This document shows positions 7,796-33,835 of a stretch of 55,338 nucleotides of DNA, piece by piece; the stretch's first letter is position 1; every line of letters starts with the position of its first letter. Source of the DNA: Candidatus Cloacimonetes bacterium HGW-Cloacimonetes-3 (GTDB lineage Bacteria; Cloacimonadota; Cloacimonadia; Cloacimonadales; Cloacimonadaceae); contig PHBO01000013.1 in NCBI GenBank assembly GCA_002840645.1, forward strand, positions 1 to 55,338, written 5' to 3'. The notes below the pieces were generated by a model. It was not told the origin of the DNA. It made no database searches and worked only from the letters and a program-made list of their open reading frames with translations. The position numbers and the translations under genes are program-made.

Positions 7796-7894
7796 CCTTC
7801 ATTAACCCCGTTGTTTCGCACTCATTAAACAATTGAAATATTGTTGAAACATGGTAAGATTGACTAAGAATATCCTGCTTGGCACATGCATGAG

Positions 7895-7996
7895 GGCGTT
7901 AATCACATCTTCATCTACCGTTAATCAAGCGTTAATAATTAACGCTTGATTAAGAGGGGATTAAAGCTTGATTAACGCCACCAAGCAAGGAAGAAG
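7895..7996. repeat. Intergenic palindrome A (TTAATCAAGCG word)
   Basis: The core is a perfect inverted repeat: arms TTAATCAAGCGTTAAT (7921-7936) and its complement (7938-7953) around one base. An outer pair, GGCGTTAATCA (7895-7905) and TGATTAACGCC (7969-7979), nests around it. On the minus strand a leader CTTCTTCCTTGCTTGG (7981-7996) adjoins it. The gap lies between the ends of two convergent genes, export protein and birA. The arms and the flanking GAGGGG are shared with the element at 44094-44146. Weaker hairpins are at 7828-7845 and 8017-8032. No T run suggests a normal terminator. Confidence 0.85.
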
Positions 7997-8084
7997 TAAG
8001 TAGGGGTAGATTAAGTTACCTGATAGCAGGTAGATAGCAGTAATTTGATGCAAGGGAGCGAAGAGATAGCGATTAGAAAAGGTA

Positions 8085-8798: not shown

Positions 8799-8799
8799 C

Positions 8800-11341: not shown

Positions 11342-12537
11342 AAGGTCTTTACATTGTCCACTATTCTATGTGCAAGGCTGAATTTGTTGCCATTTATTGT
11401 GAGGTAACTTAACTCCGGGGCTTCGGGCAAACTTGCTTGTCCTGGGAGCTTACCAATCAAGGTGATTTCGCTGTCATCAGAACCCGCTACTTCAATATTG
11501 TTCACGCAAATCATATCAAGGTTCTTGCGTTTGTATTTATCCAGAGCTTTATCCAGCAAATCATCCGTTTGTGCAGCGAAACCAATCAGTTTCTGATGCG
11601 GCAACTTAAGAGTACCAAGTTCTTGTAGGATATCAGGAGTAGAGATAAGATCGATGCAGTTTAGTTCACACTTGGGGAGTTTGGAGGTAGAAGCTGTTAG
11701 AGGCTTGTAATCCGCAACAGCAGCGCATTTGATTATCCAATCCACATCTTTGTATCTGCTTAGCACCGCTTCCCTCATGCTATCAGCGCTCTCTGCGAAA
11801 ATGGTTTCTGTAAGGTAGTGGGGGATAGTAGCTTCGATATGCCCATAAACTAAACACACCTCAGCACCACGCAAAGCCAATGCCCTCGCTAAAGCCAAAC
11901 CCATTTTCCCGGAAGAGCGGTTACTGATAAACCGCATAGGATCAATAGCTTCTATCGTAGCTCCGGCAGTGATTAATACCTTAGTTCCGCTAAGATCATT
12001 TTGATAGTTCAGAAATGTGTTTATGGCTGCAACTATTTCTTCGTTAGGTGGGTATTTTCCCTGACCTTCATATCCGCAGGCAAGCATACCGGAGCTTGGC
12101 TGCAGGATATGGTGCTTGCGGTGTTTTAAAATAGTTAAATTATCTTGCGTGGGAGCAGATTCCAACATATGCACATTCATCGCAGGTACAAATAGAATGG
12201 GCTTCGTATGTGCCAGAAAAATGGTAGATAACAGATCATCTCCGATCCCGTGTGCCGCCTTAGCAATGATGTTGGCAGTTGCAGGTGCAACCACAATTAT
12301 GTCAGCCCAATCAGCAAGGCTGATATGCACAATGGGATCAGGATCATTGAACATATTGAGGTGAATGGAATTATGCGTAATTGCCGCAAAGCTGGCAGGA
12401 CGTACAAATTGCAGGGCGTTTTCTGTAAGCACGCATTTCACTTCATAGCCAAGCTTGTACAATTTGCTGGCTAAATCTATGGCTTTGAAAGCAGCAATTC
12501 CGCCTGTAACTCCAAGCAGTATTCTCGTTTTTGGCAT
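11338..12537 (-). CDS. coaBC: Phosphopantothenoylcysteine decarboxylase / phosphopantothenate-cysteine ligase
   Basis: This bifunctional flavoprotein performs two steps of coenzyme A synthesis. The CoaC half starts ILLGVTGGIAAFKA and carries the active-site histidine region VHISLADWADIIVVAPATAN (about residues 70-90). It also has PAMNVHML and the catalytic cysteine in GMLACGYEGQGK (about 148-159). The CoaB half starts around residue 184 with GTKVLITAGATIEAIDPMR, then ISNRSSGKMG, and ends with KNLDMICVNNI and a SDDSEITLI segment. The length of 399 residues is typical. It is the first gene of coaBC-SDR-DUF3108-queA-birA. The pantothenate kinase gene coaX lies elsewhere in the window (25417-26220). 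Confidence 0.95.
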   Translation of the reverse strand: MPKTRILLGVTGGIAAFKAIDLASKLYKLGYEVKCVLTENALQFVRPASFAAITHNSIHLNMFNDPDPIVHISLADWADIIVVAPATANIIAKAAHGIGDDLLSTIFLAHTKPILFVPAMNVHMLESAPTQDNLTILKHRKHHILQPSSGMLACGYEGQGKYPPNEEIVAAINTFLNYQNDLSGTKVLITAGATIEAIDPMRFISNRSSGKMGLALARALALRGAEVCLVYGHIEATIPHYLTETIFAESADSMREAVLSRYKDVDWIIKCAAVADYKPLTASTSKLPKCELNCIDLISTPDILQELGTLKLPHQKLIGFAAQTDDLLDKALDKYKRKNLDMICVNNIEVAGSDDSEITLIGKLPGQASLPEAPELSYLTINGNKFSLAHRIVDNVKTL

Positions 12538-12703
12538 TTCTCACCTCGTTCTAATTATAATTCTTGAAATATGAATCCCTCATTTATGTCAAATGAAATT
12601 ACGTAATCAACTCAAATAAGTTGTTCTACCAAAAAAGGGATTGACAAAGATTTGGCAATAAAGAGCTTTGCGCAACGAAACTTAACAGACATATAGAGGA
12701 ATA
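12538..12703. promoter_or_regulatory. Divergent coaBC / tetR promoter region with small palindromes
   Basis: Between the two start codons lie a 10-bp palindrome ATTACGTAAT (12598-12607), an inverted repeat CAACT-6-AGTTG just after it, and AATTATAATT (12553-12562), which supplies a TATAAT on the minus strand for coaBC. The plus strand reads TTGACA at 12641-12646, ahead of tetR. TetR regulators often bind palindromes next to their own gene, so 12598-12625 is the best operator candidate. Motif inspection only. Confidence 0.35.
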
Positions 12704-13324
12704 ATGAAAAGCACAGGTAAACTACACCGCAAAGCCGGTCGGGTGAATAAAAGAGACATGCTATTAAATGCTGCCATAGAAGTATTTGCCCAAAAGGGTT
12801 CAAATTCTGCCACCATCGCTGATGTAGCAAAAAAAGCAAGAGTTGCGCTTGGCACAGTATATGTATATTTCGACAGTAAAGATGATCTGTTACAGCGTTG
12901 CATGAATGAAGTTATCAGTAATGAGATCAATACAATCATCAAAAAAACGGCTGACATACAGGACCCAATAGAACGTTTGTATGGCTTCTTCATGCATCAC
13001 ATCGCATTGGTGAACGAAAAGCCGTATATTGCCAGATTCATTACCGTTGAGGTTAGACAGAGCGAGAGCTTTTCCAGAAGAAATCCCGGATACAATCCTA
13101 TGCAGAAGTATTTGGATTATGTAGCTAATACTACTAAGGTTGCAATCGATAGCGGAAGGATTCGCGCAATTGACCCACAAGCGTTTGCTTTGTTGTTGGT
13201 AGGTGCTATGGATGTTATCATTTGGCAATGGCTTGCAAGTGATTCGAATTTGGATATTGAAGCAGTGAGTGTGCAAATCCGTGGAATTCTTCATGCCGGA
13301 GTAGCTGTTGATCCAACTGTATAA
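12704..13324 (+). CDS. TetR/AcrR family transcriptional regulator
   Basis: A 206-residue DNA-binding repressor candidate. The N-terminal TetR helix-turn-helix is clear: RDMLLNAAIEVFAQKGSNSA, then TIADVAKKARVALGTVYVYF and the DSKDDLL turn (about residues 17-66). The C-terminal ligand-binding part is helical and not diagnostic. The start has AGAGGAATA directly upstream. It opens a run with an outer-membrane-like protein (5-base gap) and a deacetylase lipoprotein (11-base overlap). It probably controls these two and perhaps the divergent coaBC operon. Confidence 0.9.
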   Translation: MKSTGKLHRKAGRVNKRDMLLNAAIEVFAQKGSNSATIADVAKKARVALGTVYVYFDSKDDLLQRCMNEVISNEINTIIKKTADIQDPIERLYGFFMHHIALVNEKPYIARFITVEVRQSESFSRRNPGYNPMQKYLDYVANTTKVAIDSGRIRAIDPQAFALLLVGAMDVIIWQWLASDSNLDIEAVSVQIRGILHAGVAVDPTV

Positions 13325-13329
13325 GGACT

Positions 13330-14424
13330 ATGTTGATAAAGAAGAATCTGATCTCATCAGCAGATAAGCTGATGGCTGGTAAGTCTTTACAGGTAGCCGG
13401 AAATCATGTAAACAAACTACTCGCACTTACTTTCCTGCTTCTTATCTTCTTGGCACCCGCCTTTTCCATCGAGCTTCCTGTGATATTTACCTGGGATTCA
13501 TTAAACAGTGGCTACTATATAAAAGCACAAACAAATAAGGACATCTCCTGGAACGAATACTATCGCATAGGTATAGAGGTAGATTCTGTAGATTACAAGC
13601 AAGTTCGGCTGATGCTAAAGATGAACAACCGGGCAGACTTTCTGAAAAACTATCTTGAACTGAATGAGATTCAGTTGACCTACAGCAGCAATAATTGGTC
13701 TGTTGCGGCTGCATCCAAACCTATTGGATACGGCAGGATTAACTCTCTTAATCCTTATGCCGTAATATCTCCTACCGATAATGAGTTTCTGCATCAAGAT
13801 AGCCGTTTTAATGGAGTAGGAGTAAGCTATGAACAGAATGATAATAACATTACTCTTGGCGCGGGAGGCAATGTTCAGAACCAAGCAATGGTATCTCTGG
13901 CGGCTACATTGGGTAAGCCCGGTGATTCGCTTTTATTATCCTTCTCTTCCGAGGCAAGGGCAATGGATTCACATTGGCGTACACCGGTTGCTATATCTGC
14001 TGTGAAACTTATGAGTATTTCATCGATAGTAAAACTGAATTCGGAATTGGCAATCAGCTATTATCCATCCCGGGATCGTACCCATGAGCACATAAGCACT
14101 TTTACCCAAGTGGAATTGGGAATAAACCCAAGTCCCATTAATTACCTTTATCTTTCCGCAATCTCAGAAGAGCTGGAGCAAAGTGGCTTGATGCTGAAGC
14201 AGCTTCAATCCTCCTTCAGCCACGATATTAAACAACTATCGCTTACTGCCGGATTATGCATAGATTTACTTGGGCACGATGCTTCCAATAGCTATCATGT
14301 TTTAGGAGAGTGGCGTTTTACCAAAGAACAGCGGCTTGGTATCATTTACCGCTGGGAAGAAAACAACAATATCTCCAGTAAACATTATGTAGGTATCCAA
14401 GCAGAGCTTAAGTATGGGATTTAG
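13330..14424 (+). CDS. Predicted exported beta-strand-rich (outer-membrane-like) protein
   Basis: I do not recognise a named family. The 364-residue product has a long n-region, then a signal peptide hydrophobic core LLALTFLLLIFLAPAFS ending at about residue 46. The rest alternates polar and hydrophobic residues in short strands with glycine/asparagine turns, e.g. YYRIGIEVDSVDYKQVRLML and RLGIIYRWEENNN. The end, YVGIQAELKYGI, suggests a small outer-membrane barrel but lacks the usual terminal phenylalanine. A start at codon 15 would give a more usual signal peptide, but its ribosome site is weak. It sits between a TetR gene and a polysaccharide deacetylase. Confidence 0.6.
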   Translation: MLIKKNLISSADKLMAGKSLQVAGNHVNKLLALTFLLLIFLAPAFSIELPVIFTWDSLNSGYYIKAQTNKDISWNEYYRIGIEVDSVDYKQVRLMLKMNNRADFLKNYLELNEIQLTYSSNNWSVAAASKPIGYGRINSLNPYAVISPTDNEFLHQDSRFNGVGVSYEQNDNNITLGAGGNVQNQAMVSLAATLGKPGDSLLLSFSSEARAMDSHWRTPVAISAVKLMSISSIVKLNSELAISYYPSRDRTHEHISTFTQVELGINPSPINYLYLSAISEELEQSGLMLKQLQSSFSHDIKQLSLTAGLCIDLLGHDASNSYHVLGEWRFTKEQRLGIIYRWEENNNISSKHYVGIQAELKYGI

Positions 14425-19128: not shown

Positions 19129-22100
19129 TTATAGATTCACTTCCACCCATATACCAAGGCTAAACATCCTGGTGGCGTCATCACGTTTCTTATCGGTAGT
19201 TATCTCATAACTGCTTGTTAATCCACCCCGGATGTTCTGGTCAAACTGGTACGTAGCTCCCGGAGTAAATGCAAGCCGTGTGGTGCTGCGATCAACCTGA
19301 GAGGTTTCTCTTCCCTGGGTTTCATCAAAGCTTTTATCGTATGCTATGGCAAGGCTGGAGCTTAGTTCATTATTAATGTGGATTTTTCGCTTGGTGAAAG
19401 GTATGGTGAAACCTCTTCCTGATCTGAAACTATACGAGATATTGCCGTTCATGGTTTTACTATTGCTTGTCTTTATTATCTGATAGCTATCCATATCTGT
19501 AATATTCTCGGTGCGAGTCATTGAGAAGCTAAGATTAGTGTTTATTGCCCGGATAATGCTTCCACTAAAACCAATCACGGGGTTAAATGCCACTGTGTTT
19601 GTTTCCTGTTTTGGCTTCACCCAATCTACATCACCGTTTTTCCTTACTGTGTTCTGGAATCCGGTATTAATTCTCGTTCCCGAAATATACTTTTGCATTC
19701 CAAACCAAGATTCAAAATTCATTAATGTGAGCGTCACATCCGGAAATGTGTATCCGATGGACTGGCTACTGGCACTTGCAAAACGTTTATTCGTAGTGTA
19801 AGAGTAGTTTAAAACACTGTCAATATTGCGTGAAATGGTTAAACCAGAACCGAATGTAATGGTATTGTCATCTGTAGTGGCATCCAAAAAGTCAGTGGGA
19901 ACACTGTGTGGTAAGCCAATCTGGAATGCAAATGGGAGAGACTCAGTTTTACGGGTATAATTCATAACATAGCCATTTTGGTATGAGGTGGTTATGTTTT
20001 TAAGTCGTGCAAGAGTGCTAACAACACCATATGTAAGCCCAAAACCGGCTGACTTTGGTTTTGATACAGTTTTAGGTATGTCGGGTTGAGTATCGGTTAC
20101 CTTAGTTTCTTCTCCAAGATCAGAGTCATCCATTTCTTTCTTTTCTTCGCTTTCGCCCTCAGTGCTCATATAGGTGTTTTCAACATTAGCTGCTGATTTG
20201 TTCTTTTCATCTAAGTATTGCTGTTTTTCTGCAAATGCCTTCATCTCTTCTTCAGAGATGTTGTTATCCTTCATGATTTGCTCTTGCTCGGCTAACAGCT
20301 TTTCCTGGGCTTTTAATTCCTCATCGCTAAACTTGTAACCGCTGTTTTTCTTTTCCTCATCAATTCTGCGTTGGTCTTCCAGCTTCTTAAGCTCTTCAAA
20401 AGTGTCAGGAAGCACAGGATTAGCTGAGGTAGAATTGCCATCTTTAGGTTTAACCTCGGTTTCTTCTGTTGGGCGTGGTCTGCGACTTTTTAATTTTTGT
20501 GCCCACGCACTCAGAAGGGAAGAGTTTTGAAGAGATGCGCTAACCCTTATTCCTCGGTTTGTGTTCCCATCACTTTGGAATACTTCGACCTGCCCATTTG
20601 GTCCGTTTTCATAGTATTTACGTTGAGTATCAGAAAATCTGGCAGTAACCGAGGCGTTTACAGTAAATATCTGTGGTAGATAATTCGGAGTGAAGTTTAA
20701 GCCCAAGTCTTGAACAAACTCGTTCATCTTCCCAATATTTACGTTATTCACATATTTCTTCTGAAGAAAATCTCGTTTGGTGTTATAACGTGCAGTAGCG
20801 GTCAAATCACTAAGTACAGCCCAGCTTACATTATTATCTGTCGTCAGCAACCTTGATGCGAGTGTCTGTGCTCTTGGATACCAAGTTGACAATGTATCTC
20901 TCTTTTCCCAGTTCCACCCTTTTGGTTGCGTGTTATTATAGGTAAAGCTGTTGTTCCATGTATTGGGCAAGTAACCAAGCCGATAATTTTTATATATAGC
21001 AAGGCTGGTGGCATTGGAAGGTAAGCTCAAGTTATAATTGAGGGTACCACGATAGCTTAGGGTCGTATCCACTGTCGTGGGTGCATAACGAAGGGAATTC
21101 TCGTATCTTGCACTAATAGAGGTGCGGTAAAGAGTGTAGAGAAGGATTTTGTTTTTTGGGGCAGTTCTTTGGCTTAAGCCAAAATCTGCACTGTACATCA
21201 AGCTCTCATTCTTCTCACGTTCCCTTTCCTGATCGTTATCTATGTTCTTTCTTAGAAGATCCGAATTGGCACGATAACGGGGGATACCAAGAGTGTAATT
21301 TCTTGATAGAGAAAGAGGCATGTCAAGATTCCAGGAAGTGGGTAGGAATTTACTTAGGAAGACTTTATTGGTTATGTTAAATGATTGCGTTCGCGTATAT
21401 GTGTTTTGCCTTCCTCGCTGTATCACCGGGTTAAAATTCTCGCTTTTATCTTCGTAATCTATGTTTAAAGTAGCCAAATCTGCAAGAGAGGTGTTCAGAC
21501 TTATTCTACTTGCTACCCCTAAATCCTGATATGGATCAACCACTCTCATGTCGTTAAAATATACGGTACCTGTATAGGGCACATAATTGTGATCATGTGG
21601 GTTATAAACCCCAAGATAGATGTCCCTGATGTTGGTCAAGGTAGGCCTTCCTTTGTAATAATATACCTTATTATCAGCTACTAAGGAATCAGCAAGAGCA
21701 TCAGGGTTTTGCAGCTTCAGTGCAATCATATCTTGAAGCAAGTAGTCTATCTCTATCCAATTATTTACGCTCATTGTGCTATTATATGGACGCACTGGAA
21801 CACGGTGGCGTACCTGGTAGTAGTTTAGCGAGTCTGCACCTATCCTGAAAATTATATCCAAAGAATCGGGATTAGTATTTGCAGGATTACTGTCACCTTC
21901 AGGGTAAACCCAGAATCTAAGACTATTGTAGGATAGCAGGTTATAGGGATCAAACATGCGTTGGCGGAGTAAACACTGCTGACCCTTGTTCAGCCTGGTA
22001 AGACTTAAGCTTAGTGACGATTCTGATGTTTCTCTATCATCTTCGATACTAACTGTCCCAAGCGGAGATCTATAATGACTACGATTCTTTTGATTATTAA

Positions 22101-25100
22101 CAATTCCCGAGAGGTAGGTGGTACCCTGAGAGTTCAGCACAGATTCGCTTAAAATGCGGTTCTGGAAGTTGCGAATGTAAAAATCCTGCCATTTGTTACC
22201 GATAAGGGAGAGATCAGCAATTAGGACTCTTGCATCTTGATCTGTTTCAACCCAAATGCGTGCGTATGATATCTTTTTTAAACTCGGTTTCACGTTAGTA
22301 CCTGAAGCACTTACTACATTGTAGAAAGCAGGGTCTGTAACAGGTATTCGGTATAGTCTCCAACCGAAATTGTTTGTGTTTTCTATCAAACTGGAGGTGG
22401 AATCACTAATAGAAAAAGAGTAACTGAAATATCGCTCAAGAGTGTTTACTACTCCATTGCCATCCAAGTCCTCAGTATCAAGAATGCGATTACCTTCTGT
22501 TCCATTAATTCTGGGGTAATCATCATATTGGTCTATATTGCTATCAGCAAGATCATTAGGATCAGCACCCGGCTGTCCATGTTCTATTCCATCCAAGCCG
22601 ATATCTTCATCAAGGGTAAGAACTCCATCCCTGTTTTTATCCTCACTGTTAAGCACATTGTATCCCCCAAACTCTGTGTAAAAGTCTTCTGAGATGTCGC
22701 CAAAGTCTATATGAAGATTTACATTCGCAGAAGGATTTTCAAGCTTAAGTAACACTTCTATATATTTCTTTTGTGAGAAGTCCAGTTGGTTTCCCAAGTA
22801 TTTCATAACTCCTGCCCAGCTATGGGTAGAAGCCCCAGGCATATTGAGGTTATTGCGGAAAGCCTTCAAAGCCAGAACTGTAACTGTTTCTGTTCTTTCT
22901 TTATCTGTTAGGGTTTGAGCATCTTCAATCATCTCTCTGCGGACATTTTTGGGATTATACCAGTTTATTCTCCCTTTAGATAGAGGAGTTCCGTAAGGTT
23001 TGCTTGCCTTAGACCATGAGGAAAAAGTTACTCCCAGAGGGTAGGAATCTATGATAGATTCCATATCATCCACATAGGATTCTTTCTTTTTATCCTTTGG
23101 GTCTCCATAAATGTTTGGTAAAGTGAATGCAACTTCTCCGGATAAACTTACCAGTGATTGGGCTGTAGTATGTACAAGGGGTAGAGCGTTAATCCATTTA
23201 GTCATAAATGCGGGTTTGAATGTTAAAGAACCATCCACATTACCCATCCACATTTCGATATTCTCATTCCCGATTCTGGGACGCTTATCTGACACATTCT
23301 CACTACGATAAACCATTGTCCCGCCAAGCTTGGCATAATCTGTAACTTGCCAATCTGCTCTGATACCTGCGAGTGTTTTTCTCGCCACCTCGAAAGCGCT
23401 GCGGAATTCAAAATCTATCTCAATTCTGGAATCAGGATCTTTACCTGCGGGAGTTAAAAAGGTGATCCTACCGAAGTCATAATCAACAATATAGTCAATA
23501 CTCTCCCGCTGTTCATTTCCGTTAACGCGTACTTTCACACTCCCCTTAAGTATACCTCCTTGGGCGAGTTCAATTGCATCGCGACCGATCTTTCCCTTAA
23601 TACCTATGTAAAAGCTAATATCCTGATAGTTAATGCTCTCGTTTTCTTCCTGATAAACAATTCCATCTCCAAGGGGCTTAAAAGGCTCAATAAAAGGCAT
23701 TATCACTAAGCCGCTGGAGAGATTGACGGTAGTATCGTCACCGTTAATCAGACCGTCTCTATTACTATCCATGCGTAAATAGTCTGTATAGGTAATAAAA
23801 CCAGGCGTAGAGATGCTATCAGGCAAGTTAAAATTACGGGTTCGGTCAACGTTTTCAGTGTATATCTGGAGGCTAAATCCCTCATTCTTGATATTAGTCT
23901 TGTACATGTTATACACGTTACGCATTTGGTAATGCCATACGTTGCTCGGATCATTTGGCGCATATTCCTGATTTCTTCGCCGGATAACGTAGGCGTGGAT
24001 ACGACCATCATTTAGGTCTTCTGGTTTTACATATGGCACCTCTGTACCATCTCTTCTGGTGTATTTTACAGCTAAGGTAGCAAGCCTGTCAATGCTCCTT
24101 AGAATGTTTATCGTACCAGAAGAGTAATCCGTAACAAAATCTGTTCCTTCAATTAGTTCATCATAGAAAGGCTCATAAGAGTCGGTTGGACTGAAGTAAA
24201 TTCTATCACCTGGAGCAGAGGCAATATTATTGGTTGAATTTGCATCATCGTAAAACAAACGTACTGTGCCATTTGCCGGTAAAGAATCCGGCGCAGCTAT
24301 TAACCATGCCCCGCTGGCATCAGTGATGATAGCGTTATTTTTCCACCCATCTGGAATACCGGCATCTCCCTGAGCATAGATTTGGTATAATCTATATGGA
24401 TTAGTAAGATAATACATATTACGCGCTGAGTAATCTCTGCTTCGCACGTTTGTAGAATCTGCCTGACTTTGCCCGATATAGCTCTGAGTGTTCTTTTGGC
24501 TTTCTTCTTTGCTTGCGATCACGCTTAAATCCAAGTTTTTATACTTGAACTTGGATGAGATGCCAAACAAACCTTGAGAGCTGGTAGAATAGCTTACATA
24601 ACGCGAACCAGATAAGGAGAGGCTGATGTTTCCACCTTCGATACTCTTTACAAACTCATCTTCATCACCGGTGTACTTAACATTTACGTTGTTGGCATCA
24701 AATATCTGCTCGTCCTGCTTCGAATTATACTTCAGATTTACAGCAATCTTTTCGCCGATTGTGCCTGTTAAGCGCAGGTTTGTTTCCTGCTCCATTTTAA
24801 GATCAAAAGTAGCACCTTGTTGCGTTTCGTAGATAGGTATTTGCTTACGTTTTGTGCTACTTCCTTGAAAGGTTAGCTTTTGCGTACCATCAAGATTAAG
24901 CCTTCCAGCCTTGCTCCCAAGTACTCTCTGAACTGCTTTGGGAATAGCTATAGCAGGGATATCCAAAACGAACTCTTTAATTAAACCGGAACTGCTTACC
25001 TGTGTCTGTGCGGAGGCTGTTTTCTGGTTGGCTAATAAAGACTTACGGAAAACTTTGTTCTGGACGCCGAGAAAGTAATTATCGAAACTGACGGACACAT

Positions 25101-25410
25101 CGTTTGTAATCTTCAAATCCCCAATGTAAAAACTAAGCCAAACCCTTTGAGCTTTAAAATCAATTCTTTCTTTATATGTAGGTGCAAAAGCGGTGATTTC
25201 ATATGGACGGGCTTTATTCACATTAAAGCCTTTGTTGAATTTGTAAACATCAATCCGATTAAAGATAATGGGGTAGTAAGAATCTATGTAAAGACGAATG
25301 GTAGGGGCATATGCAGTTCGGTTATAGGTTGGCATATTATCACCGTCGGCAACACTGTAAAGCATGGAAGTGATTATCAAGATAAGAACAAAAAGAGTTA
25401 ATCTACGCAT
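19129..25410 (-). CDS. sprA: SprA-like type IX secretion outer-membrane pore
   Basis: SprA (Sov) is the giant outer-membrane barrel through which type IX substrates pass. This 2093-residue protein has a signal peptide (LTLFVLILIITSMLYSV). It has the family block FVLDIPAIAIPKAVQRVLG and LNLDGTQKLTFQG (about residues 147-183), NVNVKYTGDEDEFVKSIEGG (about 240), and FEVARKTLAGIRADW (about 680). The rest is strand-rich to a C-terminal ASYQFDQ-like barrel region ending GIWVEVNL. Calcium-loop-like segments (DSNRDGLINGDD ~548; DKNRDGVLTLDED ~922; DLDGNGVVNTLE ~977) occur in the extracellular part. An acidic/lysine-rich coiled stretch at about 1643-1773 interrupts barrel strands and is unusual. It follows coaX by six bases. 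Other type IX genes are not in the window. Confidence 0.9.
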   Translation of the reverse strand: MRRLTLFVLILIITSMLYSVADGDNMPTYNRTAYAPTIRLYIDSYYPIIFNRIDVYKFNKGFNVNKARPYEITAFAPTYKERIDFKAQRVWLSFYIGDLKITNDVSVSFDNYFLGVQNKVFRKSLLANQKTASAQTQVSSSGLIKEFVLDIPAIAIPKAVQRVLGSKAGRLNLDGTQKLTFQGSSTKRKQIPIYETQQGATFDLKMEQETNLRLTGTIGEKIAVNLKYNSKQDEQIFDANNVNVKYTGDEDEFVKSIEGGNISLSLSGSRYVSYSTSSQGLFGISSKFKYKNLDLSVIASKEESQKNTQSYIGQSQADSTNVRSRDYSARNMYYLTNPYRLYQIYAQGDAGIPDGWKNNAIITDASGAWLIAAPDSLPANGTVRLFYDDANSTNNIASAPGDRIYFSPTDSYEPFYDELIEGTDFVTDYSSGTINILRSIDRLATLAVKYTRRDGTEVPYVKPEDLNDGRIHAYVIRRRNQEYAPNDPSNVWHYQMRNVYNMYKTNIKNEGFSLQIYTENVDRTRNFNLPDSISTPGFITYTDYLRMDSNRDGLINGDDTTVNLSSGLVIMPFIEPFKPLGDGIVYQEENESINYQDISFYIGIKGKIGRDAIELAQGGILKGSVKVRVNGNEQRESIDYIVDYDFGRITFLTPAGKDPDSRIEIDFEFRSAFEVARKTLAGIRADWQVTDYAKLGGTMVYRSENVSDKRPRIGNENIEMWMGNVDGSLTFKPAFMTKWINALPLVHTTAQSLVSLSGEVAFTLPNIYGDPKDKKKESYVDDMESIIDSYPLGVTFSSWSKASKPYGTPLSKGRINWYNPKNVRREMIEDAQTLTDKERTETVTVLALKAFRNNLNMPGASTHSWAGVMKYLGNQLDFSQKKYIEVLLKLENPSANVNLHIDFGDISEDFYTEFGGYNVLNSEDKNRDGVLTLDEDIGLDGIEHGQPGADPNDLADSNIDQYDDYPRINGTEGNRILDTEDLDGNGVVNTLERYFSYSFSISDSTSSLIENTNNFGWRLYRIPVTDPAFYNVVSASGTNVKPSLKKISYARIWVETDQDARVLIADLSLIGNKWQDFYIRNFQNRILSESVLNSQGTTYLSGIVNNQKNRSHYRSPLGTVSIEDDRETSESSLSLSLTRLNKGQQCLLRQRMFDPYNLLSYNSLRFWVYPEGDSNPANTNPDSLDIIFRIGADSLNYYQVRHRVPVRPYNSTMSVNNWIEIDYLLQDMIALKLQNPDALADSLVADNKVYYYKGRPTLTNIRDIYLGVYNPHDHNYVPYTGTVYFNDMRVVDPYQDLGVASRISLNTSLADLATLNIDYEDKSENFNPVIQRGRQNTYTRTQSFNITNKVFLSKFLPTSWNLDMPLSLSRNYTLGIPRYRANSDLLRKNIDNDQEREREKNESLMYSADFGLSQRTAPKNKILLYTLYRTSISARYENSLRYAPTTVDTTLSYRGTLNYNLSLPSNATSLAIYKNYRLGYLPNTWNNSFTYNNTQPKGWNWEKRDTLSTWYPRAQTLASRLLTTDNNVSWAVLSDLTATARYNTKRDFLQKKYVNNVNIGKMNEFVQDLGLNFTPNYLPQIFTVNASVTARFSDTQRKYYENGPNGQVEVFQSDGNTNRGIRVSASLQNSSLLSAWAQKLKSRRPRPTEETEVKPKDGNSTSANPVLPDTFEELKKLEDQRRIDEEKKNSGYKFSDEELKAQEKLLAEQEQIMKDNNISEEEMKAFAEKQQYLDEKNKSAANVENTYMSTEGESEEKKEMDDSDLGEETKVTDTQPDIPKTVSKPKSAGFGLTYGVVSTLARLKNITTSYQNGYVMNYTRKTESLPFAFQIGLPHSVPTDFLDATTDDNTITFGSGLTISRNIDSVLNYSYTTNKRFASASSQSIGYTFPDVTLTLMNFESWFGMQKYISGTRINTGFQNTVRKNGDVDWVKPKQETNTVAFNPVIGFSGSIIRAINTNLSFSMTRTENITDMDSYQIIKTSNSKTMNGNISYSFRSGRGFTIPFTKRKIHINNELSSSLAIAYDKSFDETQGRETSQVDRSTTRLAFTPGATYQFDQNIRGGLTSSYEITTDKKRDDATRMFSLGIWVEVNL

Positions 25411-25416
25411 ACAACC

Positions 25417-26220
25417 TTAGCGATTCTGTGATTGTCTCAAATGATTAAAAGCCATATAGAAACCGTCGAGGGTAAGGCTCTTGTCGATGATATCTATAGA
25501 AGCAATCAGCGGATGCACCAAAGTGGCAAGCCCACCGCATAGAATAGTTTGTATCGGGGAATAATCGAAGTATTGTAGCTTTAGTCTGTTTATGAAAGCC
25601 TCCAGCATAAGAGCATGTCCGTGAATTACTCCGGAAAGAACTGCATCGTGTGTATTTCTGCCCAGAAGTGCTGGAGGGAGTATCAACTCCAGTTCATATA
25701 GCTGAGCAGCTTTATCCCACAAGCCGGAAGCTCCTGTTTTTATCCCCGGAGCAATAATAGCTCCCTCGAATATCCCTTTGGAACTTACCACTTGAATAGT
25801 TGTGGCAGTACCAAGATCAATCACGATGGAGTTGTGTTCATACTTCTTCCAAACGGCATAAGCGTTAGCAACCAAATCTGCGCCAACCGTTCCGGGATTA
25901 GTGGATTTATAAGTAAGCCCAAGGGGGCTTAGTCCGTTGATTTCATATATAACAGCTTTTGCATATTTTGTAATAAGGTGTTTCCAAATTCTGGCTAACT
26001 CCGGAACAACACTTCCCAAAGCTACATAAGGGATATCCTTTAGGTTGATATCTTTCAATAAACCTGATAATAGACTGTAGTATTCATCGGAAGTACGTTC
26101 TCTTTGTGATTGTAGACTGCACGTCCAAACGGCATTGCCCTGCTGGTAAATGGCACAAACAATATTTGTGTTGCCAATATCTACCACCAAGACCGGTTCG
26201 CTCACAGAATAATTATGCAT
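25417..26220 (-). CDS. coaX: Type III pantothenate kinase
   Basis: The enzyme phosphorylates pantothenate at the start of CoA synthesis and, unlike type I, is not feedback-inhibited by CoA (family knowledge). The ASKHA fold motifs are present: VLVVDIGNTNIVCAIY at the start (phosphate 1), NPGTVGADLVANAYAVW (about residues 102-118), IVIDLGTATTIQVV (phosphate 2, about 127-140) and GAIIAPGIKTGASGLWDKAAQL (about 149-170). The end contains ILCGGLA. At 267 residues it is typical. It is co-directional with sprA, six bases downstream. Confidence 0.95.
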   Translation of the reverse strand: MHNYSVSEPVLVVDIGNTNIVCAIYQQGNAVWTCSLQSQRERTSDEYYSLLSGLLKDINLKDIPYVALGSVVPELARIWKHLITKYAKAVIYEINGLSPLGLTYKSTNPGTVGADLVANAYAVWKKYEHNSIVIDLGTATTIQVVSSKGIFEGAIIAPGIKTGASGLWDKAAQLYELELILPPALLGRNTHDAVLSGVIHGHALMLEAFINRLKLQYFDYSPIQTILCGGLATLVHPLIASIDIIDKSLTLDGFYMAFNHLRQSQNR

Positions 26221-26417: not shown

Positions 26418-28592
26418 CTACTTGCAATCATGCTGCCAAACCCCATCCCACTTGTCCCAATCAATGATATCTATTCTTTCCAGCATAATCAAACAGGGCT
26501 TATCATCTTTGTTATAGTTCAGTGCTTCCAGAAAATGTGCTTTTGCTTCTGATCGGTGCCCTGAGTGCATCAAAGCGAGAGCAGTCTCGTAGGTGCGGTA
26601 GCAGGTTTTGGAGCTTTCATCTGTATTGCTTGCATTTAGATAGTCTATCACTTCAAATATATCGGAAACAATCTCTTTGCCTTTCACGGTTACTCTGTCC
26701 AGTTTGCGACATAAGAACTGGTCTTTAACCAACTGATAGGTACATTCATCTATGATAATAGAAGTTCCATAGTATTTGTTTAGGCTTTCCAAACGGGAGC
26801 AGAAGTTCATTCTGTCCCCAATACCGGTGTAATTGAAGATGCTATCTGAACCAATGTTTCCTACTATTACTTCTCCGGTTGCAACACCAATGCCAATGCG
26901 AAAATCACTAAGGACGGGATGTTGAGAGTAATCACGTTTTAAACTGAAGGATAAATCTCTTATCTCCAAGGCAGTCTTAACTGCATTAAGGGCGAACTCT
27001 GGATAGGGGAGAGGTGCCCCATAAAGCGCAAGCACCGCGTCGCCGATGTATTTATCCAGCAATCCGCGATTAGCAACAATCAGTTCTGTAGCTTCATTAA
27101 AATATAGGTTCATAAAGCCGGTGATTTCTGCTGGACTTAGTTTCTCGCAGTAAGAAGTGAAATTACGCACATCCACGAACATAATGCTTACAGTTTTCTT
27201 TTCTCCACCCGGAGAAAGGCTCTGCGATCCCTTCATAATCTGACTGATTACGTCTCTGGACACATAATGCTCGAAGGCGTTGCGTACTTTCTTCTTTTCT
27301 ACAGTAGCAAAGTGCGATTGAGCACTGAAGATACTTGTAAACCCAATAATCCAAGGTAACAAGATCGAAGAATAGGATAAGCACAGTCCAGATGAAACAT
27401 ACATGATATAAAACACTGGAAACAACAATGCAGTGAATAGCACAAACATGCTTATCGAAAACAGAGGTTTTGCTTTTCGGATAACAAGTACAAGTAATAA
27501 GAGCAGCAATACATCAATAACTAATATCCACCAGATATTTAGCCATCGTATATGGGTGGATTCCAGCAAGTTGCGGATAAAGGTGGCGTGCAGTTCTACT
27601 CCGGGATAGTTTGAATCAAGGGGAGTGCTCTTTATATCTCTAAGTCCTGATGCTGATGAGCCTATAAGCACTATTCTATCTTTAAAGAAGCCTGGCTGAA
27701 TACGTTGCAGTAAAACATCCGAGAAAGATATATATCTGAATGCGCCCTGTGCGCCATAGTATTTCAAGTAACACAAACCATCACTGCTTAAAGGGATATT
27801 GCGTACTATCTTCTTACCTGAGTACAATTTGCAGACATCTGAAGTTTCCATGCGGTCAACCCCCAAAAGGTCGAGACACATCTGGAAGCTGAAGTTAAGA
27901 TAAAAATTATCCTTATAGCCAAGAAACAAAGGGTAGTCGTGGATAATACCGGATTCATCAGCTATAATATGGGCGAAACCTACTCCAGCTGCAACGTTGG
28001 CAAATTTGTCTATAGGGGGATGTATATTGTTTAAAGGGATGTAACTAAGCGGTTGTAAATCCCAAGTGCTAACGATGGAAGGAATGTCCTTTTGGGGGGT
28101 GTTATCATCGCTGTTATACATTGCCAGATATACATTACCAGCCTGCTCGATTGATTTGGCGAGCACAGCATCTGAACTTAGCAGGTCAATAATCTGATCA
28201 GCATTGGTTTCAGGAATACCCATAATATCCTTCAACCGATTTCTTGTATACCCAGATATGCTATCGTTTTCGGTGAAGAATACATCCATGCCGATGGCGA
28301 TGGGTTCATCTGCAGACAATATATCAATCAGATCGGCAAATAGAAAGGACTTCCAGGTAGAATATTGTCCAAGTGTGGAAATGCTCTTTTCGTCGATATC
28401 CACAATGCAGATATCATCGTACACTCCTTGTATGTCCGTATTGGATAGTGCGTTCCCGAAATCTACGAGGGTATCATAAATCCTTAAGTCGGCTATTCTT
28501 AGCAATTGTTTTGATATGGGCATGTGCAAGAGTAGAAAAGACCCAAGTAATACCCCAACGACAATCAGGAGATAGCGGAAAAGTATACGCAT
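26418..28592 (-). CDS. CHASE2-domain adenylate cyclase (class III)
   Basis: This 724-residue membrane sensor should make cAMP. One N-terminal helix (LIVVGVLLGSFLLL) precedes a periplasmic CHASE2 domain (about residues 45-330: ICIVDIDEKSISTLG, AIGMDVFF, FKDRIVLIGSSASGLRD). Three membrane helices lie at about 350-425. The cyclase domain (about 465-640) has the metal site FVDVRNFTS, the second aspartate and adenine-type lysine in LDKYIGDAVLALYG, and YTGIGDRMNFCSRLE with the transition-state asparagine/arginine. The catalytic residues look intact. A short helical repeat-like tail (ALALMHSGHRSEAKAHFLEA) ends it. FecR-like and NHL/TPR genes precede it in the same operon (7- and 10-base gaps), suggesting they form or modulate its input. 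Confidence 0.9.
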   Translation of the reverse strand: MRILFRYLLIVVGVLLGSFLLLHMPISKQLLRIADLRIYDTLVDFGNALSNTDIQGVYDDICIVDIDEKSISTLGQYSTWKSFLFADLIDILSADEPIAIGMDVFFTENDSISGYTRNRLKDIMGIPETNADQIIDLLSSDAVLAKSIEQAGNVYLAMYNSDDNTPQKDIPSIVSTWDLQPLSYIPLNNIHPPIDKFANVAAGVGFAHIIADESGIIHDYPLFLGYKDNFYLNFSFQMCLDLLGVDRMETSDVCKLYSGKKIVRNIPLSSDGLCYLKYYGAQGAFRYISFSDVLLQRIQPGFFKDRIVLIGSSASGLRDIKSTPLDSNYPGVELHATFIRNLLESTHIRWLNIWWILVIDVLLLLLLVLVIRKAKPLFSISMFVLFTALLFPVFYIMYVSSGLCLSYSSILLPWIIGFTSIFSAQSHFATVEKKKVRNAFEHYVSRDVISQIMKGSQSLSPGGEKKTVSIMFVDVRNFTSYCEKLSPAEITGFMNLYFNEATELIVANRGLLDKYIGDAVLALYGAPLPYPEFALNAVKTALEIRDLSFSLKRDYSQHPVLSDFRIGIGVATGEVIVGNIGSDSIFNYTGIGDRMNFCSRLESLNKYYGTSIIIDECTYQLVKDQFLCRKLDRVTVKGKEIVSDIFEVIDYLNASNTDESSKTCYRTYETALALMHSGHRSEAKAHFLEALNYNKDDKPCLIMLERIDIIDWDKWDGVWQHDCK

Positions 28593-28599
28593 TAGTACT

Positions 28600-29268
28600 T
28601 TATTTGTCAGTGGGAAGGCTATCCAGTGTTGTACTTTCAGGGAAGTCTTGTTTCAATAACGTTACATGTTTTTTAAGCTTAACCACATCGCCCAATGAGT
28701 CGTAGATTAGAATCAAATAGGCATGAGAAAGCTCGGCATCCTTTTTTAGGGGAGCTTGATTAATCACTTTCTCGAAGAGCGGTATGGCTTTAGTATATTG
28801 CTTGGTTTCATAAAGTGATATTGCTTCAGAAATTTCCTGTAGTTCCTCAATATACCAGAAAAGAAGGCTATCTCTGCTGACATCAGCTTCTTCACGTCTT
28901 ATTCCCGCAGTGCTTGATGCGCGGCGCTTGTTTTGTAGTTTGAGATTTCCTACTTTGTTCTCTAATTTGTTTTTCCAATTCTGCTTGGAAGATGCTTCAT
29001 CCAAAAGTTTACGTACGCCAACCTGTCTGTTAGCAGGGACAGTTGATGTACCTCCTTCAGACCATTGCACTTCCACAGAAGAATCTGGACCTGTCTTTAG
29101 AAATCCATCTTCAGAAATGGGTAAGCCCAAAGAGGCAAATTTGTAAGGTTGGTTCTGATTTGCCCTGTACTGCACTTCTCCAAGGATAAAGCGGATTTTC
29201 CCCACTTGTGCAGCTCCAAGATGAATGCTAATAAAGCACACGGAGATGATTAAAATAAGCCTATTCAT
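28600..29268 (-). CDS. FecR-like domain protein with TPR-type tail
   Basis: This 222-residue exported protein has a signal peptide ending GAAQ at about residue 20. Residues 21-90 resemble a FecR domain: VGKIRFILGEVQYRANQN, then FLKTGPDSSVEVQWSEGGTS. A charged linker rich in lysine and arginine follows. The C-terminal ~80 residues are helical and repeat-like (AISLYETKQYTKAIPLFEKV, HAYLILIYDSLGDVVKLKKH), resembling one or two TPR units. FecR-like proteins are often found beside CHASE2 cyclases, and here the cyclase starts seven bases downstream. It probably works in the periplasm as a partner of the sensor. The ribosome site AGGGGAA is clear. Confidence 0.75.
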   Translation of the reverse strand: MNRLILIISVCFISIHLGAAQVGKIRFILGEVQYRANQNQPYKFASLGLPISEDGFLKTGPDSSVEVQWSEGGTSTVPANRQVGVRKLLDEASSKQNWKNKLENKVGNLKLQNKRRASSTAGIRREEADVSRDSLLFWYIEELQEISEAISLYETKQYTKAIPLFEKVINQAPLKKDAELSHAYLILIYDSLGDVVKLKKHVTLLKQDFPESTTLDSLPTDK

Positions 29269-29278
29269 TTTATTCCCC

Positions 29279-32200
29279 TTAGTTTAGCAAGTCTGAGAAT
29301 ATTTTAACATCGAGGTTCTTTATTATATTACGATCCTTTAGTTGGTTAAAATACTCTTTTGCTTTCTTTATATTGCCTTGGCGGTATTCCAAAATACAGA
29401 GATTGCGTAATACCAAATCTGGTTCCTGTGTGTTTCTGAGTGCGTTTTGGTATTGGTCTCTGGCTTTGTTAAATTGACCTGTTTCGTAGTAGAGATTACC
29501 CAAATTCACATAAGCGGATAAGTTGTTAGGGTCTTTCTTCAAGACACCTTCCCACAGGTTTATAGCAACTTCAAATTTGTTGTTTTGTACCGCCCAGATA
29601 GCATATTGATTTACAACAGAGATGTTGTTTGGATATTTCGCTATCGTTTGGCGGTATTCCTCTTCGCGAGATAGCTGCCCCATAATAGATATATTCTCCA
29701 CATCACTATTATATAAGGCAAGGGTTTCGTTGTTTTTACCGAATTGGTTGTACTGTACGATATCGCTATAATTGGCAGGAGGGTATAGCTTGTGAGCATC
29801 AGCAAACTCAATCAAATCGGGATAGATGCCTTGATCCAACATTTTGTCATAAAAGCGGATCGCGTAGAGCCAGCTCTCAGAGAAGCTGCTTTTTCCCAGC
29901 TGCGTTGTTTCCACGGGTATCCAGTATTTCTCGTTTACATATATTAAGTGATTAAGGTCAATCCCGCTTTCCGCAGCTTCTTCTTTGCTAAATCTTGAAT
30001 CAAAGACAAGCATAACATGTCCGGGGAAATCTATAAACCCGCAATCAACGCCGATTGTAGAGAGTAGCGTAGCCATTAAGGCAAGCAGATCTTCGCAATC
30101 CCCGGATTTACGGTTTAAAGTTTGGAAGGGGTATTGGACATAATCATATTTACTATCCGATGCATTGCTTGATGTGTTATCCGATATAAAGCTAATCCCA
30201 TTGGCGCGTAAAAAGCTCCAGATTTGGATGGCGCGTTGGAGGTTCTTATTCATCTGGCGGGCAGGGGCTTTAGAAAACATCTGCACCACATTTGTACTTA
30301 CAAAATCACGCATAATTTCGTCAGCAGGATTTATGAAGCTGGCAAACTGTTTGCGGTTATTCCAGTCCATGGCAGAGGCAGACATGGCATTTATACTTAC
30401 TTGCTCTTTAGTTATGCTGACGGGTGTCCCTTCCCACTTATAGTCCAGTTTCAATTCCGTCGATATCGTAGTAGGGGCATCTTTGCATAACGTGAAGATG
30501 TTTAAGTTTATCGGTAAAATGATATCAACCACATGATTCTGATTAGGAAGCAGGGTTTGGATAGTAGTTTCAAAAGCTCTGTCCGCTATCTGAGGTGCAG
30601 ATACTCTGATTCTCACATTCTGGATGGGGACATTTCGATTGTTAAAAAGAATAACACTTCCAAGCGGATGAGTTTTGTAAAACTCCTGCAAAGAGGGATA
30701 AAGCTTTTGATAGAAATATGCTTTGATTTCCACTTCCGGTTTGTTTTTGTTGTAAAAATCTCTTGCTTGTGTGGCATCAATCAACTTGGCTTGCAGAACA
30801 GAGTTATTGGGGGCGTAGTTCACAGCAATTTGCAGCTCGCGATAAGCATCGTCATATCGCTGCTCAATTGTCAACAAATCCGCATACAGCTCATGGAAAG
30901 AAGTAGTAGAAGCATCACTTTTAATAAACTGATTAGCATCATTCAATACTGATAAAGCATCCGAAAAGCGGTTTGCTTTTTTCAATGCTTCCGCATAGGC
31001 AAATCCATATTGTACTTCTTCTGAGTTCAGCTCCCAGGCTTTTGCAAAGTTCATTAAAGCCTCATTGCTCTTTCGGCTTTCGCTATAAGCTCTGGCAAGG
31101 CAGTAATAATTTTCTGCCTTACCGGGATTCTGGCGTACAGCATTGCTATAATAATCTTCAGCATATGCAAAATTGCCGGATGAGAAATAGATATCTCCCA
31201 AAAGCTTATAAACCACATCCAGATTTTGTTCCTTAAATCGGTTTAACAATCGCTGTAGCAGAGTTAAAGCTTCATCATTCCTGTTGGCAAGAATCAGTAG
31301 CTCTGCTATTTTTACATTGCTTTGAAAGCTATCCTCAATTGTTAACAACTCGCGCATGTTTGCCAATGCAGCATCATAACTACCCAGATTCTCATTTGCC
31401 CATGCAAGGTATTGCAGTATGTTGGAGTCCGTTTGAAATTTGTTGATATAGGCGTTGCTAAGGGACAGGACTTTTGCATAATTATTGTTTAAGTAATATA
31501 GCGAGATTAGCTGATTTTGTATCTCTTTTGTATCATTAGCCTTGAATTTTTCGAGGTAAGCTATCCCCTGCCGATACTCTTTCTCAAGCTTGAATATATT
31601 CACAGTTTCGAGAATGAACTCCAGCCTTTGCCCACCCATTGCCATAGCGGATTCCATACTTATAAGGGCTTTCTCGTACTCATGTAGATTAGTGTAGTAT
31701 TTTGCTTCCGAAACATAGCTATTTACTATTTCTTCATCAATTCGAGGGTCATTAAAAACTGCTGCTGCCTGCTTATAAGCTACAATTGCGTGCGAGTACA
31801 TATTGTTTGCTGCAAGATAGCGAGCATAGGAGTAAACATCTTCTACTTCTATGCTCGGTAAACTGCAATACCCATCTAAGGAAAGGGATGAAACTGAATA
31901 TCGCGCTACACTACTTTGGGGATCTTTTATCACAAATCTTGGTTCTGAAACTTGATATTGCTCTACATCTCCGTCTCCGGTTTTGATAACAAGCCACTTA
32001 CTGATGCCTTCAGGCACAGCCCAGCACAATTCCGCCTGTGCATCGGGATTAAGTTTTATTTGTAAAGTCTGCAGTTTTATAGGGCAGTACACAAAGCGTA
32101 GTTTGCGTGCGGTGGTAGCTCCTTTGTCACTTATGAAAAGCGATTTTTCCCAGTCATTATAGTTAATCTGATAGATATTGGCAAAGTTTGGAAATACCGC

Positions 32201-33835
32201 CTTGGCATTTTTGGCAAAGTACTTATGTTCAACTTTAGTTCCATTAAGGATAACCAGTTGTTGAGTTATTGAGTTTATATACCCCATTCGGTTCTCATAG
32301 ATTAAATCAAAAGTACTAATAGCATCATCCTGGAAAACAAGGGTCTTTTGTTGTGGGTTTGCTAAGGGTAGCTCATATATTGAATTACCATTGGCAAGCA
32401 TAAATAGAGAGTAACCCTTAATTCGCAATTGATTTGGTACAAGTTTGCTTTCCTTAAATTCAATATTTCCAATAAACATGTAGTTTTCGTTAAATATAGA
32501 TATGCGTAAGTTTCCGCTATCAGCCACGTACAACAAGCCATCATCTGAAGTTACAAGGCTGGTTGGAGTATTCAGCCTGCCTTCTTTTGAACCCTTCATG
32601 CCAAAGCTATCCATAAACGCACCGGTAAGTTTGTTAAATATATAGATTTTGTGCGATTTACTGTCGGCAACAAATAGCTTCATGTTAAAAACAGCGATAG
32701 CATCAAAGCTCTTCACTCCCTGCTTACTAAAGGAAACTGCATTTATAGTGTATCGTTTATTGCCATAAGCATTGCAGGTTATACTACGAGTTAGCTTTGT
32801 ACCTGATAAAATTGAATCATGGACAAAATATTCCAAACTATCATTCACTATGTAATCATACAGGGGAGGTGTATTAGAAGTTTCCAGTGCCGGACGCATG
32901 GTGAATTCCGGTATTGGGAGCAACGTTTTGCCGGAGAATTCAGTATCTTTAAAAAGCCTGATTATCTTTTGTTTGCTGTCCAGGATAGCGAGTAAGACAT
33001 CGCTCTCCCAAGGGAATACATGCACAATCGCAGGTGCTAAAAAAGAACTCGGAGAGTTTCCCTTATCTTTGTTTCCCCAGGTGGATTTGGAGATGATTCG
33101 TCCCTCAGAATTTACTTTCCCTATTTTCGTGCTGCCAGTGTAGATAACGTAAAGTTCATTATATTGGTTAACTGCTATATCTGCAACTGTATCTTTCTTA
33201 TCCTGAATTGTTTGGATTTCAAAGCCTTTCTTTGGATTCAGATCCTGATCAAATATCTGCACTTCTGTGTAAGTGAGTTTGGCTGATAAAACACGGAGTA
33301 GTTGATCTTGCCCTATACACATGGAAATGGGATTCAGTATCGCTGTTTTACCTACAAACATACCTTCGTTGCTAAAAGCTAAAAGCTCACTACGTCCCGC
33401 ATCCAGCACATATAGATAGCCTTGTTGGTTCACAACCAGGCGAAGTGCTTTTTTAAACTGGATATCAGGTGCACCTTTTGTCGTGATGGTTCTTTGGTGA
33501 GTGCCTTCCATGTTGTAAACACGGATGCTGCTATTCTTTGAATCCAGGATATACAGTGAGTTTGCATCACCGGTTATGTCATCTGCCTTCACTCCTCCAG
33601 GGAGCTTGGTAAAGACACGTTGGTTAAATGCCATCTTATTGGTATCCCAAACCATGATATTACCGTTTGAGTTGTCCACTGCATAAATGAAAGATCCCCA
33701 GAGATGGAATTTAGTTGCACCAAAATTACCATCTTTGCCCTTGAGGGCAGGAACTGTGTGTAAGGGTTGCGGCACAGCATTTAATATAGTGCATAGCAAT
33801 AGTAGTATGATGATGCCAAAGCAAGTTTTCTTCAT
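29279..33835 (-). CDS. Large exported NHL-propeller / TPR / transglutaminase-like protein
   Basis: This 1518-residue protein has a signal peptide (CFGIIILLLLCTILNA). Residues ~30-560 contain NHL/propeller-type repeats, e.g. LRLVVNQQGYLYVLDAGRSE and NTPTSLVTSDDGLLYVADSGN. About 660-1060 holds a run of TPR repeats, e.g. AENYYCLARAYSESRKSNEA. Next comes a transglutaminase-like domain (about 1190-1300) with NRKSGDCEDLLALMATLLST (cysteine ~1249), GHVMLVFD (histidine ~1272) and a likely third residue downstream, so the catalytic triad may be intact. The C-terminus has more TPRs (LSAYVNLGNLYYETGQFNKA). It opens the operon with the FecR-like and cyclase genes. A surface or periplasmic scaffold or peptidase role is possible, not known. 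Confidence 0.8.
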   Translation of the reverse strand: MKKTCFGIIILLLLCTILNAVPQPLHTVPALKGKDGNFGATKFHLWGSFIYAVDNSNGNIMVWDTNKMAFNQRVFTKLPGGVKADDITGDANSLYILDSKNSSIRVYNMEGTHQRTITTKGAPDIQFKKALRLVVNQQGYLYVLDAGRSELLAFSNEGMFVGKTAILNPISMCIGQDQLLRVLSAKLTYTEVQIFDQDLNPKKGFEIQTIQDKKDTVADIAVNQYNELYVIYTGSTKIGKVNSEGRIISKSTWGNKDKGNSPSSFLAPAIVHVFPWESDVLLAILDSKQKIIRLFKDTEFSGKTLLPIPEFTMRPALETSNTPPLYDYIVNDSLEYFVHDSILSGTKLTRSITCNAYGNKRYTINAVSFSKQGVKSFDAIAVFNMKLFVADSKSHKIYIFNKLTGAFMDSFGMKGSKEGRLNTPTSLVTSDDGLLYVADSGNLRISIFNENYMFIGNIEFKESKLVPNQLRIKGYSLFMLANGNSIYELPLANPQQKTLVFQDDAISTFDLIYENRMGYINSITQQLVILNGTKVEHKYFAKNAKAVFPNFANIYQINYNDWEKSLFISDKGATTARKLRFVYCPIKLQTLQIKLNPDAQAELCWAVPEGISKWLVIKTGDGDVEQYQVSEPRFVIKDPQSSVARYSVSSLSLDGYCSLPSIEVEDVYSYARYLAANNMYSHAIVAYKQAAAVFNDPRIDEEIVNSYVSEAKYYTNLHEYEKALISMESAMAMGGQRLEFILETVNIFKLEKEYRQGIAYLEKFKANDTKEIQNQLISLYYLNNNYAKVLSLSNAYINKFQTDSNILQYLAWANENLGSYDAALANMRELLTIEDSFQSNVKIAELLILANRNDEALTLLQRLLNRFKEQNLDVVYKLLGDIYFSSGNFAYAEDYYSNAVRQNPGKAENYYCLARAYSESRKSNEALMNFAKAWELNSEEVQYGFAYAEALKKANRFSDALSVLNDANQFIKSDASTTSFHELYADLLTIEQRYDDAYRELQIAVNYAPNNSVLQAKLIDATQARDFYNKNKPEVEIKAYFYQKLYPSLQEFYKTHPLGSVILFNNRNVPIQNVRIRVSAPQIADRAFETTIQTLLPNQNHVVDIILPINLNIFTLCKDAPTTISTELKLDYKWEGTPVSITKEQVSINAMSASAMDWNNRKQFASFINPADEIMRDFVSTNVVQMFSKAPARQMNKNLQRAIQIWSFLRANGISFISDNTSSNASDSKYDYVQYPFQTLNRKSGDCEDLLALMATLLSTIGVDCGFIDFPGHVMLVFDSRFSKEEAAESGIDLNHLIYVNEKYWIPVETTQLGKSSFSESWLYAIRFYDKMLDQGIYPDLIEFADAHKLYPPANYSDIVQYNQFGKNNETLALYNSDVENISIMGQLSREEEYRQTIAKYPNNISVVNQYAIWAVQNNKFEVAINLWEGVLKKDPNNLSAYVNLGNLYYETGQFNKARDQYQNALRNTQEPDLVLRNLCILEYRQGNIKKAKEYFNQLKDRNIIKNLDVKIFSDLLN

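Follow-up and report, generated by a model that had tools for sequence, protein, structure and literature searches.

What does the CHASE2 sensor of a bacterial cyclase respond to? This input was reported as unknown in 2016 (PMC5192318), and one plant-signal CHASE2 pathway has been worked out since. The question arises again at a three-gene set in the window, a stretch of 55,338 nucleotides from a Cloacimonadota genome (contig PHBO01000013.1), where a CHASE2 cyclase gene (C) follows genes for a giant exported protein (A) and a small exported protein (B). We find that A, B and C probably constitute a single signalling device through which the state of the cell envelope is reported. A, which has a probable protease site and is conserved as a partner in the periplasm, is a concrete candidate for a CHASE2 input in many phyla. 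The features of the locus, all on the minus strand, are as follows.

29279..33835 (-): A, giant exported protein of 1518 aa (ORF, Pfam, AF2 model)
33776..33835 (-): A, predicted signal peptide, residues 1-20, with no lipobox; A20 invariant in the alignment of 13 orthologues
32066..33766 (-): A, NHL/beta-propeller region, about residues 24-590 (PF01436, PDB chains)
30776..31828 (-): A, central TPR array, about residues 670-1020 (many Pfam matches to TPR families)
29816..30364 (-): A, transglutaminase-like domain, residues 1158-1340 (PF01841, hhalign, AF2)
30095..30097 (-): A, Cys1247, catalytic candidate at a helix N-terminus in the model, flanked by D1246 and E1248
30017..30019 (-): A, His1273, second triad residue, at a strand start in the model
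29909..29911 (-): A, Glu1309, completing the triad; immediately follows a strand in the model
29282..29713 (-): A, C-terminal TPR, about residues 1375-1518 (Pfam, AF2 model)
28600..29268 (-): B, small exported protein of 222 aa (ORF, alignment of relatives)
28984..29211 (-): B, N-terminal beta region, aligned by hhalign with FecR over its first half only (E 6e-5, 65% probability)
28894..28908 (-): B, AGIRR motif, residues 121-125, without variation among B proteins from 15 Cloacimonadota loci
28624..28836 (-): B, C-terminal TPR (weak Pfam TPR matches, stronger in relatives)
26418..28592 (-): C, CHASE2 class III cyclase of 724 aa, predicted adenylate cyclase with a periplasmic sensor
27486..28532 (-): C, CHASE2 domain (PF05226, 180-181 bits, cut-off 26.3)
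26673..27200 (-): C, catalytic domain (Guanylate_cyc, 72 bits, cut-off 21.9)

The open reading frames of the window reproduce the three-gene set exactly as initially annotated, with gaps of 10 bases between A and B and 7 bases between B and C. The single strong promoter proposed for the set fared differently: a sigma-70 scan returned 22 promoter-like sites, where shuffled sequence gave 22.6 ± 5.0, and none of the 22 lies in the gap upstream of A. Because the number of sites is at background level, we dropped the promoter claim. Elsewhere in the window, a gene for a 2093-aa protein (19129-25410, minus strand), which we take to resemble the type IX secretion protein SprA, adjoins a CoaX-like gene at 25417-26220.

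A consists of a signal peptide, an NHL beta-propeller region, a TPR array, a beta-sandwich, the transglutaminase-like domain and a C-terminal TPR region, in agreement with the exported 1518-residue protein with propeller, TPR and Cys/His pair that had been proposed. The propeller matched PF01436 (E 3.6e-11 at full length, 9.1e-13 with the N-terminal part alone), and its matches in the PDB included the NHL chains of TRIM71 and Thin. Both A and B begin with a hydrophobic, signal-peptide-like stretch that carries no lipobox, and so both should be soluble periplasmic proteins.

The transglutaminase-like domain lies at the edge of what Pfam recognizes. Scanned alone, the region matched PF01841 with E 4.5e-4 and 20.9 bits, just below the curated cut-off of 23, and in a genome-wide search it scored E 3.8e-4 and 21.9 bits; at E ≤1, the family was found in 7 of 13 A orthologues. 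A profile comparison by hhalign with transglutaminase-core proteins of the phylum aligned 38 columns around the cysteine (E 7e-6, probability 84.5%). The candidate catalytic residues are conserved. Among 86 relatives, 83 have the cysteine, and all 83 of these have the histidine and an acidic residue on either side of the cysteine (Asp1246 before it, position 1248 after it). The glutamate is present in 82, the lone exception being a sequence that ends at a contig border. The rest of A diverges to 25-30% identity among the relatives that keep the triad. The three relatives lacking the triad are spirochaete proteins, each encoded beside an intact copy. At these spirochaete loci (L111, L117 and L143) the transglutaminase-like proteins form a tandem pair, the first without Cys, His and Glu and the second intact, an arrangement of pseudo-enzyme and enzyme.

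An AF2 model of A residues 1028-1518 (mean pLDDT 94.2, pTM 0.87) places the cysteine at the start of a helix, the histidine at the start of a strand and the glutamate after a strand, an order that, as modelled, fits the transglutaminase/LapG fold. The third residue of the triad, on which the initial annotation had staked its reading of the domain, is thus the conserved Glu1309, and the model, itself of high confidence, puts it where it would be expected. A PDB fold search with the modelled domain returned mostly TPR proteins and was therefore uninformative on the transglutaminase core; a sequence search with the modelled region returned repeat proteins only. PF06035 (LapG) had no match in the A domain at E up to 10, nor in the orthologues. 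The Cys-His-Glu domain would most likely be a LapG-like cysteine protease.

B combines a FecR-like half domain, a helix, a conserved linear motif and TPR in an exported protein. Its description as FecR-like is weak: profile comparison gives a tentative alignment with the first half of FecR, and PF04773 had no match in B of the window at E up to 10. Among B orthologues, 4 of 15 matched PF04773 (best E 0.015), and a FecR search of the own genome recovered only the FecR of a second CHASE2 module and not B. Proteobacterial B proteins, of about 131 aa, have no FecR half and keep the remaining core. This constant core comprises a short amphipathic helix, the motif [AG]G[IV]R[GR], which is present in nearly all B relatives, a YW pair and TPR. 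The motif resembles the FecR strand 'TVASVKGT' and may be no more than a remnant of it.

At locus L092 the C-terminus of A and B were modelled as one read-through chain (mean pLDDT 90.2, pTM 0.80), in which B folds with good confidence: its beta domain is followed by helices, then by a disordered segment bearing the motif, and finally by TPR. The motif itself has a pLDDT of about 35 and is not docked, with the single chain serving as a proxy for docking. The literal LapG-type sequence [TAP]AAG occurs in 10 of 61 B proteins. A LapA retention module (NF033682) matched B weakly (E 0.017-0.027) in only 2 of 15 proteins and was set aside on both counts.

The identity of C as a CHASE2 cyclase, given in the initial annotation, is borne out by two domain matches well above their cut-offs and by the retention of all class III residues: D474, D518, K514, T589, N596 and R600 are invariant in 14 orthologues. 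In class III cyclases, the residues at D474 and D518 bind metal, those at K514 and T589 contact the purine, and N596 and R600 are also catalytic. The Lys/Thr purine pair is typical of ATP use, and C is therefore a predicted adenylate cyclase.

A cAMP signal requires a reader, and the annotation had proposed a search of the genome for CRP or other cyclic-nucleotide-binding regulators. The own genome encodes six class III cyclases and six cNMP-binding proteins; the search of this genome found no regulator with a Crp-type HTH. A Crp-type reader was dropped, since all six cNMP-binding proteins are without a Crp HTH. cAMP would most likely be read by such cNMP-binding proteins and not by a Crp transcription factor, the likeliest reader being a cNMP-binding histidine kinase that keeps the phosphate-binding signature FGEMGIINDEPRSASV. 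At two loci of the same genome, L048 (2452-3567) and L052 (2196-3062), a cNMP-binding domain is joined in one protein with a histidine kinase or a response regulator.

The A-B-C order is not confined to one strain, being present in all 14 further A-bearing genomes of the same genus or family, with flanking genes that vary. These 14 include two loci that end at contig borders and L033 (G005:C107, 4397-9060, minus strand), where A is split. At L033, A is spread over several reading frames and B and the cyclase are intact, reflecting either decay or an assembly error.

Across a survey of one genome per species (84,980 species), we found 80 loci. The order A-B-C recurs in Calditrichota, Ignavibacteria, Chlorobi and Bacteroidota, the sole Calditrichota locus comprising A-B only. 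In Proteobacteria the order is cyclase-giant-B, and at two deltaproteobacterial loci the cyclase is placed divergently. Genes downstream of the trio in Gallionellaceae have sequences resembling hemA, prfA and prmC; we treated these housekeeping genes as chance neighbours of no special interest. A locus was counted as informative if a cyclase had been found at it or if its contig extended far enough to either side of A. In 55 of the 61 such loci, A has a CHASE2 cyclase no more than 1.5 kb away, and in six this interval has none.

Adjacency is accompanied by co-occurrence at the level of whole genomes. CHASE2 was encoded in all 14 tested A-bearing genomes, most of them picked for having no CHASE2 gene beside A, versus 2 of 14 control genomes. 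Within the phylum of the window, A and the cyclase subtype of C (above 500 bits) were found in one identical set of 17 genomes; inside a genus, the two are jointly present or absent. In an eighteenth genome (G075, 74% complete), A is truncated where its 4.1 kb contig ends, and the search there found no C-subtype cyclase.

In a 296-genome draw from Bacteroidota, the phylum of L096, 17 genomes encoded a close relative of the domain at E below 1e-40, and in seven cases this relative was a giant of more than 1500 aa. Relatives of about 830 aa lie near CHASE2 cyclases at 7 of 9 loci, three of them directly adjacent, and B is found at none of the nine. We had considered a unit with A and B as core and the cyclase as an optional addition; this idea is weakened, as genomes without an adjacent CHASE2 gene encode one elsewhere and the 830-aa relatives keep the cyclase without B. 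At L200, L203 and L205-L208, transglutaminase/TPR proteins of about 830 aa are encoded near CHASE2 cyclases, in some cases with a CsgG-like gene (PF03783 in L200) in place of B.

That the trio is a shared unit is well supported by the genes, domains, catalytic residues, gene order and genome-level co-occurrence. How might it work? A would be a soluble periplasmic protein, and either a partner or material of the envelope would be bound by its propeller and its TPR arms. B would be its dedicated small periplasmic partner and possibly its substrate, exposing [AG]G[IV]R[GR] after a helix. On the periplasmic side, the CHASE2 domain of C would sense the state of A and B and set the cAMP output of the cytoplasmic class III cyclase. 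We infer from this arrangement that the proteins would form a complex, that A would act as a protease with B as a possible substrate, that the signal would pass from the periplasm to the cyclase, and that the nucleotide would be cAMP; envelope sensing and cAMP signalling by the trio are likewise suggested by its domains. Taken whole, the reading of A and B as a periplasmic sensor-protease pair that sets the output of the CHASE2 cyclase has, in our judgement, somewhat below an even chance of being right. Against it count the undocked motif and its resemblance to a FecR strand, the Glu where LapG has Asp, the missing PF06035 match, the Bacteroidota relatives of about 830 aa with a CHASE2 cyclase nearby and no B, and the six informative loci at which A has no CHASE2 cyclase within reach of 1.5 kb. 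Its most specific form, a Lap-like system in which A cuts B at [AG]G[IV]R[GR] and the cyclase converts the event to cAMP, is tentative and, on balance, doubtful.

The proteolytic part of this reading can be set against the idea that A is a non-proteolytic scaffold, which binds envelope glycan or protein through its propeller, TPR and transglutaminase-like fold and, with B, presents a ligand to CHASE2 much as the outer-membrane barrel NsrA may do. The NsrA/CHASE2 precedent in Sinorhizobium works without a protease, the second CHASE2 module of the own genome has a FecR and an 803-aa exported protein in place of A and B, and the triad is gone from some of the spirochaete relatives. This loss, however, is confined to spirochaetes and always occurs beside an intact copy, and a scaffold would not obviously explain a triad kept in 82 of 83 Cys-bearing relatives from many phyla through such divergence of the remaining sequence. 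We regard the scaffold as rather unlikely. Alternatively, A could be a hydrolase or acyltransferase that processes peptidoglycan, glycan or another envelope protein, with C reporting or controlling its activity and B acting as an adaptor. Transglutaminase-like folds have varied substrates, and HvyA, a member of this class, restrains the Caulobacter capsule (PMC4241560). However, domain searches of A found no carbohydrate-binding domain, and the motif-bearing B follows A even at loci without C, and we consider a role of this kind unlikely.

Could the three genes be neighbours by descent only, with separate functions? The distance matrices of A, B and C correlate at 0.95-0.96, values that vertical descent alone could give. 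Yet the order, the short gaps and the co-occurrence hold across phyla, with varied flanks and in two layouts, and A and C are gained or missing together within genera, making common descent without common function highly improbable. The sensor-protease reading, if true, would mean that regulated periplasmic proteolysis can be wired to cAMP instead of c-di-GMP, extending Lap-style control, and the event between B and A would be a defined protein input for CHASE2.

The comparison with Lap systems rests on LapG/DvhG, which has a periplasmic cysteine protease fold, the probable fold of the A domain, and acidic residues flanking the cysteine, as in A (PMC3032545, PMC13090378); in LapG/DvhG, D316 and E318 beside C317 bind calcium (PMC13090378). 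In its substrates, a targeting helix and the cut site [T/A/P]AAG come after a retention domain (PMC13090378). The modelled order of beta domain, helix and disordered motif in B would correspond to this layout. LapG/DvhG has a C-H-D triad, is controlled through LapD and c-di-GMP and acts on large adhesins, whereas A has C-H-E and large propeller and TPR arms, and adjoins a cAMP cyclase.

Other published systems resemble the cyclase side of the trio. In Sinorhizobium meliloti, CHASE2 cyclases make cAMP upon a signal sensed via the outer-membrane protein NsrA (PMC13001267). Like the trio, the NsrA, CyaD1-CyaD2-CyaK and Clr pathway converts an extracytoplasmic signal to cAMP with CHASE2 class III cyclases and an outer envelope protein (PMC13001267). 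Unlike the trio, it uses a beta-barrel outer-membrane partner, has neither a transglutaminase-like giant nor B, and reads cAMP by the CRP-family protein Clr, whereas the own genome is without a Crp-type HTH. A Campylobacterota cluster, which shows signs of horizontal transfer, also has a CHASE2 adenylate cyclase beside exported FecR and TPR proteins; it differs in having a cAMP phosphodiesterase, and for its TPR protein a transglutaminase-like domain is not reported (PMC9239204). The BiofilmReg operon of Burkholderia places a periplasmic FecR/LysM protein directly beside a CHASE2 sensor, both tied to envelope or biofilm control, but its output is a histidine kinase rather than a cyclase and it has no giant (PMC5192318). 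In magnetotactic bacteria, MtxA (PDB 4Z29) recalls the B-C pair: it is small and exported, combines a beta region with TPR, and its gene immediately precedes that of a CHASE2 adenylate cyclase; unlike B, it has an Fn3/Ig-like domain, its locus is without a giant, and its deletion gave no phenotype under standard conditions (PMC4439547).

Neighbouring FecR and CHASE2 genes were thus already known, as the initial annotation had stated, from Burkholderia (PMC5192318) and Campylobacterota (PMC9239204), and for the giant as a third partner, which the annotation took to be undescribed, we likewise found no paper. Nor did our literature search, which covered few subscription papers, find one that brings CHASE2, FecR and transglutaminase together; as far as this search reached, the trio is a real, conserved and undescribed module. 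It fits a wider pattern in which a CHASE2 protein has an exported FecR-like neighbour, with the FecR half missing in Proteobacteria. The second module of the own genome, at L047 (G000:C22:72000-90000, 7853-14016, minus strand), pairs a CHASE2 cyclase with a true FecR (PF04773), and its 803-aa exported protein had no Pfam match. In several other genomes of the phylum, FecR genes of about this length and CHASE2 cyclase genes are separated by a few kb. At L097 (1386-12159 onward), a set of FecR-like, 799-aa and CHASE2 cyclase genes lies directly before the A-B-C trio on one strand.
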